Source: Actinomycetota bacterium
GTDB taxonomy: Bacteria; Actinomycetota; Acidimicrobiia; IMCC26256; VFJJ01
Direction: 5' to 3'
DNA: 35,161 bases
Assembly (NCBI GenBank): GCA_009886115.1
Contig: VFJJ01000139.1
Span: forward strand, 1-35,161
This document shows positions 25,781 to 26,822 of the stretch, one piece after another; position 1 is the stretch's first letter, and every line of letters begins with the position of its first letter. The notes beneath the pieces are model-generated. The model did no database searches. It was not told the DNA's origin and saw only the letters and a program-made list of their open reading frames with translations. The translations under genes and the position numbers were made by a program.

Positions 25781-25810
25781 CCCCCCTGACCCCCTGACCC
25801 CCAGACCCCC
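25781..25810 (-). other. Predicted G-quadruplex (minus strand) / i-motif (plus strand)
   Basis: The plus strand has four C-runs of 6, 5, 5 and 5 bases separated by TGA, TGA and AGA. The minus strand therefore reads G5-TCT-G5-TCA-G5-TCA-G6, a textbook short-loop quadruplex motif. Its core is three 8-bp tandem units (CCCCTGAC, CCCCTGAC, CCCCAGAC at 25783-25806). The last run overlaps the first two bases of the adjoining palindrome. Confidence 0.75.
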
Positions 25811-25859
25811 AAATTTGTGCAGAAATCGTCGCCTGGCGACGATTTCTGCACAAATTTGG
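25809..25859. terminator. Perfect palindrome with 25-bp arms, probable bidirectional terminator
   Basis: Bases 25809-25833 are the exact reverse complement of 25835-25859 around a single T. The outer arm is AT-rich (CCAAATTTGTGCAG) and the centre GC-rich (CGTCGCCTGGCGACG), unlike the surrounding GC-rich DNA. It sits between the convergent methyltransferase stop (25774) and the stop of the small minus-strand gene (25868), the usual place for a two-way terminator. Confidence 0.75.
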
Positions 25860-25867
25860 TCACGGTT

Positions 25868-26233
25868 TCATGACGGCGGCGGGAAGGGTCGGCTGACGAA
25901 CGTCTTGAGGGGCTCCGTGTCGCAGGAGCCATAGCAGTACTGGTGACCCGAGACGAGGAGGAGATCATCGGCCAACACCGGGGGGCTCGGGCTCGGCGCC
26001 TGGCCGATCTGCTCGAGCGGCAGTGTCGAGGTCGGTGCCGGTGGTCGGTCGAAGCGCGCCCGGGTCGTGCAGTCGTCCCCGTCGTCTTGGCCGCTGCTCC
26101 AGTGACCCGAATCCCAGGCGCCGGGCTCAACGACGACGGCGGCGTTGTCGATTCGAGCGGCTACCAACACGTCGTCGGTCCGCATGTCCTCGATCGCGGT
26201 GCCCGGGAAGCCGAGGCAGCGGCTGTCGGCCAT
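25868..26233 (-). CDS. Hypothetical protein, possibly a gene fragment
   Basis: A 121-residue minus-strand frame starting MADSRCLGFPGTAIEDMRTD. It contains DVLVAARIDNAAVVV and SPPVLADDLLLVSGHQYCYG, then ends in FVSRPFPPPS. I do not recognise the family. The PPVLADDLLLVSG run resembles a beta-propeller blade strand, which is only suggestive. There is no Shine-Dalgarno, no signal peptide and no plausible promoter before the ATG. Copy 2 of the 47-bp hairpin element lies only about 50 bp upstream, so this may be the 3' part of a longer, truncated gene. The three Cys residues (one near the start and two in YCYGSC) are unusual for a cytoplasmic actinobacterial protein. Confidence 0.4.
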   Translation of the reverse strand: MADSRCLGFPGTAIEDMRTDDVLVAARIDNAAVVVEPGAWDSGHWSSGQDDGDDCTTRARFDRPPAPTSTLPLEQIGQAPSPSPPVLADDLLLVSGHQYCYGSCDTEPLKTFVSRPFPPPS

Positions 26234-26336: not shown

Positions 26337-26822
26337 CTATCCGAGCGCGGACTCGATGGCGGCGATGACCTCGGGGGCGTCGGGGGCGGTGGTTGGCGCG
26401 AAGCGGGCGACGACGTGGCCGTCGGGGGCGACGACGAACTTCTCGAAGTTCCAGCGGATGTCGCCGGTGTGGCCGTCCCCGTCGGCGACGGCGTTGAGCT
26501 CGGCGAACAACGGGTGCTGCTGAGCGCCGTTCACGTCGACCTTCTCCGACAGCGGGAACGTGACGCCGTACGTGCTGCTGCAGAACTCGGCGATCTCGTC
26601 GGCCGAGCCGGGCTCCTGGCCCAGGAACTGGTTGCACGGGAAACCCACGACCGAGAATCCACGGGGTGCGAGCTTCTCGTGCAGGGCCTCCATGGCCTCG
26701 TACTGCGGGGTGAGCCCGCACTTGGACGCCACGTTCACAAAGAGCGCAGCCTTGCCGGGAAGCGAGTCGAGCAGCCCGGGCGTGCCGTCGAGCGTGGCGA
26801 TGTTGTGCTGATAGACGGTCAT
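26337..26822 (-). CDS. Glutathione peroxidase-family protein (2-Cys, thioredoxin-dependent type)
   Basis: A 161-residue peroxidase with the peroxidatic Cys35 in NVASKCGLTPQY, FPCNQFLGQEPG with Cys63 at 61-72, and WNFEKF at Trp124/Asn125. Cys81 in EFCSSTYGVTFPL matches the resolving Cys of yeast Gpx3-type enzymes, so it is likely reduced by thioredoxin rather than glutathione. It removes hydrogen peroxide and lipid hydroperoxides in the cytoplasm. The ATG at 26822 begins MTVYQHN and is preceded by GGAGG. It lies 89 bp after the ABC ATPase on the same strand and may be read from the same transcript. The length is normal and all active-site residues are present. Confidence 0.93.
   Translation of the reverse strand: MTVYQHNIATLDGTPGLLDSLPGKAALFVNVASKCGLTPQYEAMEALHEKLAPRGFSVVGFPCNQFLGQEPGSADEIAEFCSSTYGVTFPLSEKVDVNGAQQHPLFAELNAVADGDGHTGDIRWNFEKFVVAPDGHVVARFAPTTAPDAPEVIAAIESALG

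Follow-up and report, generated by a model that had tools for sequence, protein, structure and literature searches.

A REP-like family of 47-nt palindromes behind stop codons in an Acidimicrobiia genome, likely serving as a two-way 3′-end element

Introduction

The closest described counterparts of the element reported here are the REP/RAYT systems, in which GTAG-tagged palindromes accompany TnpA-REP Y1 transposases and which likewise consist of short, genome-specific, many-copy palindromes lying near gene 3′ ends in convergent and co-directional gaps (PMC3733652, PMC6006769). A canonical REP is a multi-copy extragenic palindrome of ~20-65 nt with a GTAG/GTGG (or CGTC) tag that stays unpaired at one hairpin foot, and in a REPtron the enzyme gene is itself bracketed by repeats. 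The CGTC-tagged REPs are REP-like elements at gene 3′ ends without a known dedicated transposase (PMC3733652); their stems measure 8-9 bp, with the unpaired tag at one end. Mycobacterial I-shaped terminators are hairpins within ~50 nt of stop codons whose U-tract is poor or missing, and the references in PMC12288462 differ as to whether such hairpins terminate. High-GC Actinobacteria have few known canonical terminators, and how their genes end is an open question (PMC12288462).

Here we analyzed a 35,161-nt stretch of an Actinomycetota genome (class Acidimicrobiia; assembly GCA_009886115.1, contig VFJJ01000139.1), hereafter the window, which contains a perfect palindrome next to a G-rich tract between two convergent genes. 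The palindrome belongs to a repeat family of ~80 intergenic copies of 47 nt, which in size, copy number and placement near gene 3′ ends resembles canonical REPs. It lacks their tag, however, with flanks that read CCS...SGG on both sides, and its stem spans 22 bp, in contrast to that of the CGTC-tagged REPs, with CGTC found only inside the arm of one subfamily. A search for the Y1 HUH transposase (PF01797), the only transposase family searched, gave no match in the source genome or in seven other carrier genomes, while control genomes did give matches. On the absent tag and the absent Y1 transposase, membership in REP/RAYT was rejected, and we file the family as REP-like, not REP, and likely a two-way 3′-end element.

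Results

A G-rich tract adjoins a perfect palindrome between convergent genes

The 47-nt unit (25811..25857, no strand assigned) consists of 22-bp arms and a 3-nt centre and reads AAATTTGTGCAGAAATCGTCGCC T GGCGACGATTTCTGCACAAATTT; the flanking CC/GG extend it to a full inverted repeat at 25809..25859. Its 25-bp arms (25809-25833 and 25835-25859) are 100% complementary around T25834, and CC..GG at the palindrome edges is a family-wide trait. The adjoining tract (25781..25810) reads G5-TCT-G5-TCA-G5-TCA-G6 on the minus strand, and thus C6-TGA-C5-TGA-C5-AGA-C5 on the plus strand, where it lies between the methylase stop codon and the hairpin; C25809-25810 are common to tract and palindrome. With four runs of three or more G and short loops between them, it fits the G-quadruplex motif and is a predicted G-quadruplex. 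A sequence-only reading of this DNA had described G-runs of 5, 5, 5 and 6 with three 3-base loops, exact 25-bp arms around one T and a two-base overlap, and direct reading bears this out to the letter. The four-run motif with G≥5 occurs nowhere else in the window or across 295 kb of the genome, with 0.0 expected from a first-order Markov model of the window, whereas motifs of G3 are at chance level in that model (4 found versus 4.3 expected per window).

The genes are convergent, as that reading had also stated. On the left, a DNA methylase gene (PF01555; 24428..25774, plus strand) ends 36 nt from the 47-nt unit; on the right, a 121-aa ORF without a Pfam match (25868..26233, minus strand) ends 10 nt from it, followed by a glutathione peroxidase gene (26337-26822, minus strand). 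The methylase, to which the reading had drawn attention, is an incidental neighbor, as other copies adjoin many different genes. As RNA, the palindrome gives hairpin z-scores of -9.0 and -7.5 for the two strands. Past the stem, the U-tract amounts to UUU followed by GG, and a minority of copy ends in the genome (the TTCTGTG type) carry none at all. The site is absent from the output of a terminator scanner that requires at least 5 T in 8; over the half of the window that was scanned, the canonical terminator pattern did not exceed chance, and Rfam gave zero matches at gathering score within the window.

The palindrome is a dispersed repeat of one fixed size

Allowing up to 2 mismatches, the 5.45-Mb assembly contains 66 occurrences of the arm AAATTTGTGCAGAAAT, most of them in mirror pairs spaced 31 nt apart. 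Covariance models built from copies found ~80 genome-wide, all of one size with 22-bp arms and a 3-nt centre (81 after removal of duplicates, one weak match included), a lower bound given the limited number of candidates scored and the several copies at contig ends. Two main subfamilies have the cores CGTCGCC and GCTCACC, next to minor ones such as CAACGAACGTCGCC, and two main end types occur, AAATTT (or AAATGT) and TTCTGTG. The half-site TGYGCRGAAA is conserved in the source genome, while the 3-nt centre is the most freely varying part.

Copies lie within ~150 nt of contig ends more often than expected (contigs C17, C18, C21, C31, C82, C93, C124, C129 and C151). The assembly seems to break at these palindromes, so the count probably understates the true number of copies. 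By blastn, the palindromes gave no match that would indicate a phage or plasmid origin, IMG/VR matches to the half-site pattern turned out not to be true palindromes, and no target-site duplication was evident in the flanks of the copies listed.

Across 37 diverse copies, changes on both sides were seen in 19 of the 22 pairs, with 178 double-change cells versus 62 in shuffles and a signal that was destroyed by sliding the partner. Wobble pairs are rare in the arms. Among co-directional copies, sense-strand mismatches of the G-T and A-C kinds were about equal (14 and 16) and so give no sign that an RNA hairpin as such is under selection. Either the two strands both matter, or it is in the DNA that the symmetry is maintained. 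Correction by template switching can produce double changes in palindromes without any selection. The covariation therefore supports a conserved palindrome and not RNA specifically, and such correction of DNA palindromes could alternatively be what keeps the arms symmetric.

Copies follow stop codons and avoid divergent gaps

The 81 copies fall into 38 convergent, 33 co-directional and 2 divergent gaps, with 8 at contig edges, whereas background gaps of at least 60 nt in 295 kb number 26 convergent, 95 co-directional and 33 divergent (Fisher tests: convergent excess, P = 9e-8; divergent deficit, P = 1e-4). Gene calls came from a simple codon-usage finder, for which stops are exact and starts are not. 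The median distance of copies from stop codons is ~23 nt. Co-directional copies lie a median of 23 nt past the upstream stop and are closer to that stop in 27 of 33 cases; within co-directional gaps of at least 150 nt, 13 of 14 copies are nearer the upstream stop than the next start. A copy is missing from most convergent gene pairs (of 26 sampled, 1 has one), and the end type (AAATTT or TTCTGTG) shows no clear bias with gene orientation. A search for orthologous positions shared between genomes yielded one gene end, that of an EF-G-like gene in the source genome (G000) and G005, which we judged chance-level. Classical REPs are placed likewise (PMC3733652), so that placement alone is no proof of a terminator role.

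Two other observations on placement concern the source genome. In locus L085 (2156 and 3069), a PhyH dioxygenase gene lies between two copies of the rare subtype CAACGAACGTCGCC that are 913 bp apart, and a 48-nt palindrome of another family, CAACTGTCAGCGTGAGGGTCCG..., lies near a gene end in a 153-nt co-directional gap (L268).

The flanks are C-rich before and G-rich after the hairpin

The segments between stop codon and element (n = 103, median 25 nt) have a C content of 0.60 and a G content of 0.19, versus 0.37 and 0.34 after other stops. Past the hairpin the strand is G-rich, and this holds on both sides, so the flanks are symmetric. A GGGG run is found in 129 of 156 flanks versus 31% of background windows, and a G-quadruplex motif in 33 of 156 flanks (21%) versus 38 of 7174 background windows (0.5%), a ~40-fold enrichment beside copies. 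Because the G-rich tracts are symmetric, their coupling to the palindrome characterizes the family in this genome. The fusion of G-quadruplex and palindrome noted from the letters at this one site is thus systematic, although its G-quadruplex half is optional: the motif is present on at least one side in 32 of 80 copies and on neither side in 48, and hence is not a necessary part of the element. The source genome also encodes Rho (RNA-binding domain PF07497, E 5.7e-31), and the order of a C-tract followed by a hairpin resembles a predicted Rho loading site ahead of a hairpin.

Relatives of the same size occur patchily in other genomes

With a broad model, relatives with other arm sequences, mostly of the same size and with a common GTGC anchor, were matched in 23 of the 395 class genomes; the weakest of these matches are not clean palindromes. 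As the majority carry none, the distribution is patchy. GTGC lies at equal distance from both ends across genomes while the inner cores differ, and arms are alike within a genome, different between genomes, with a 3-nt centre that varies freely. The prevalence of the 47-nt size is partly favored by a model built on 47-nt copies, and independent palindrome scoring agrees with it. Half-site pattern searches found 12 copies with the core GGAGTAC in the metagenome-assembled genome Acidimicrobiia IP29b_bin.142, and multi-copy relatives in an Actinomycetota groundwater MAG too. A few Actinomycetota genomes outside the class also match the broad model; in Rhodococcus sp. Leaf247 and one similar genome the palindromes lie right at the stop codons of convergent genes, and the same position at stop codons is seen for relatives from other families and from beyond the class. 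The related families in other genomes are largely without G-tracts. The many half-site matches outside Actinomycetota (Bacteroidales and others) are not full palindromes and were set aside. Palindromes of 47 nt, perfect or nearly so and with GTGC at the same position, were seen in Dictyobacter and Ktedonobacter, also outside Actinomycetota (L170, L197, L203).

Genes for a putative AbiEi-DUF559 nuclease are bracketed by palindromes

Comparing copy-adjacent genes across genomes, one gene family surfaced, encoding an AbiEi-type N-terminal region followed by DUF559 / MTES_1575, as assigned by Pfam (DUF559 / MTES_1575, a putative PD-(D/E)XK endonuclease) and by PADLOC AbiEi models. The gene lies between two palindromes in the source genome (L115) and in G091 (L226); in G299 (L376) the bracket also encloses a DUF234 ATPase gene, and in G119 (L318) and G204 (L316) the gene has a palindrome on one side. 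The bracketed gene is the only member of its family in 400 kb of G091, and one of two members is bracketed in 400 kb of G299. A rough estimate, made for a family noticed after viewing the data, puts the probability of bracketing by chance well below 1% per genome. The association is in part post hoc, since three of the five proteins had supplied the lead before any test of the family; those of G091 and G204 came from a profile built from the other three. The source-genome protein has EAVG where the others have ExDG, and this copy may thus be altered.

Other kinds of genes are bracketed too, namely PhyH (L085), an HTH-nucleotidyltransferase (L294) and Usp (L256). The copies examined from G005, G328, G031 and genomes outside the class had no nuclease gene next to them, and in the Tsukamurella and Nonomuraea records (L342, L343) the DUF559 genes have no palindrome of this family beside them. 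Position alone does not show that the nuclease acts on the palindrome.

Two smaller features were seen at bracketed genes. Between palindrome and nuclease start codon, CTGTCACACCCC is common to L115 (~2595-2635, source genome) and L318 (~2530-2560, G119), which belong to two different families; it is possibly a common promoter, perhaps a damage-inducible one. The palindromes that bracket the HTH-nucleotidyltransferase gene in G299 (L294, 2022-2068 and 3228-3274) are nearly identical and both have GCG before and CGCGGGATCCCG after them, as if they were one duplicated unit. A cassette-like duplication around bracketed genes was otherwise set aside, with shared flanks seen in this locus only.

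Discussion

We find it somewhat probable that the palindrome is a REP-like dispersed repeat with a fixed length of 47 nt that serves as a two-way 3′-end element. RNA polymerized from either side would present a stop codon, a short, C-rich, unstructured leader, a long hairpin, UUU or similar, and a G-rich tract. From this arrangement we infer that the palindrome would most likely end the transcripts of one or both flanking genes, as a hairpin terminator with a poor U-tract and/or through Rho loading on the C-rich leader, and that the hairpin may also protect the transcript 3′ end; the G-tracts might contribute. The bidirectional transcription block proposed for the window site agrees with the placement at stop codons, the convergent excess, the divergent depletion and the G-rich tracts on both sides, yet the site is a member of a repeat family and not a unique fusion. 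The copies must have multiplied through some copying process, for which the AbiEi-DUF559 putative nuclease is, by the position of its genes, the best candidate enzyme.

Measured against known terminators, the element shares with bidirectional intrinsic and mycobacterial I-shaped terminators a hairpin near stops that has a poor or absent U-tract and is usable from both sides. It has the stable hairpin after the stop of a canonical intrinsic terminator, but not the U-rich tract directly past the stem, and it has the C-rich, G-poor RNA between stop and element, together with the presence of Rho, that go with Rho-dependent termination. To our knowledge, known terminators do not occur as near-identical dispersed copies of one fixed length. 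In Haemophilus and Neisseria, paired uptake sequences form inverted pairs after genes that double as terminators. Like these, the palindrome is repeated after genes, but it has no known uptake motif, and both its spacing and its length are fixed at 47 nt.

A different, more tentative reading takes the palindrome for a selfish repeat copied by the AbiEi-DUF559 (PD-(D/E)XK-type) nuclease, with tolerated insertions accumulating after stops and any effect on transcription as a by-product. It would account for the putative nuclease genes that are bracketed in the source genome, G091 and G299 (there with the DUF234 ATPase) or one-sided in G119 and G204, for the bracketed gene being alone of its family in 400 kb of G091, for arms that are alike within and different between genomes around a free centre, and for the patchy presence in the class. 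Tolerance alone, however, would not require copies to keep so close to the upstream stop in long co-directional gaps as well; no insertion event, target duplication or empty site was seen, the nuclease association is partly post hoc, and the copies from G005, G328, G031 and outside the class have no nuclease beside them. That the symmetry serves double-stranded DNA instead, as a mirrored half-site (TGYGCRGAAA here, GTGC more widely) bound by a dimeric protein such as a nucleoid or recombination protein, with the hairpin incidental, we consider improbable. GTGC equidistant from both ends despite differing inner cores, perfect DNA symmetry without a G-T bias and the fixed length would all suit such a site, but pairing spans the whole 22-bp arm, through lineage-specific cores with double changes, and the copies keep to gene 3′ ends and away from divergent promoters.

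Nor do the G-tracts make it other than very improbable that a G-quadruplex and a cruciform act together as DNA, pausing replication or blocking transcription. Although the lone four-fold G≥5 motif in 295 kb adjoins the palindrome and G-quadruplex motifs are enriched beside copies, 48 of 80 copies have none in either flank, and the related palindromes of other genomes occur without G-tracts.

Returning to the two-way 3′-end element, the palindrome family is real and systematic and, as far as the literature shows, undescribed; nothing relevant was found on it or on DUF559 with palindromes, and it is the function that we infer. As in a REPtron, an enzyme gene is bracketed by the repeats, with the AbiEi-DUF559 protein in place of the Y1 transposase. 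It is conceivable, if rather doubtful, that a previously unrecognized class of GTGC-anchored 47-nt palindromes in Actinomycetota has for its partner, in the place of a Y1 HUH transposase, an AbiEi-DUF559 (PD-(D/E)XK-like) nuclease, which would copy the palindromes into gene 3′ ends where hosts would use them as a two-way terminator. The nuclease would then be a second, unrelated solution to the REP/RAYT task, and one group of DUF559 proteins would gain a possible role. Overall, the data point, short of proof, to an unrecognized kind of mobile repeat that spreads gene-end signals. A gene-end repeat family of one size across a class and beyond offers dozens of matched test sites per genome.

Finally, in Tsukamurella tyrosinosolvens (NZ_LR134454.1; L342, 4597-4644), a 48-nt palindrome unrelated in sequence fills a convergent gap beside pntB, and other palindrome families at convergent stops may exist.
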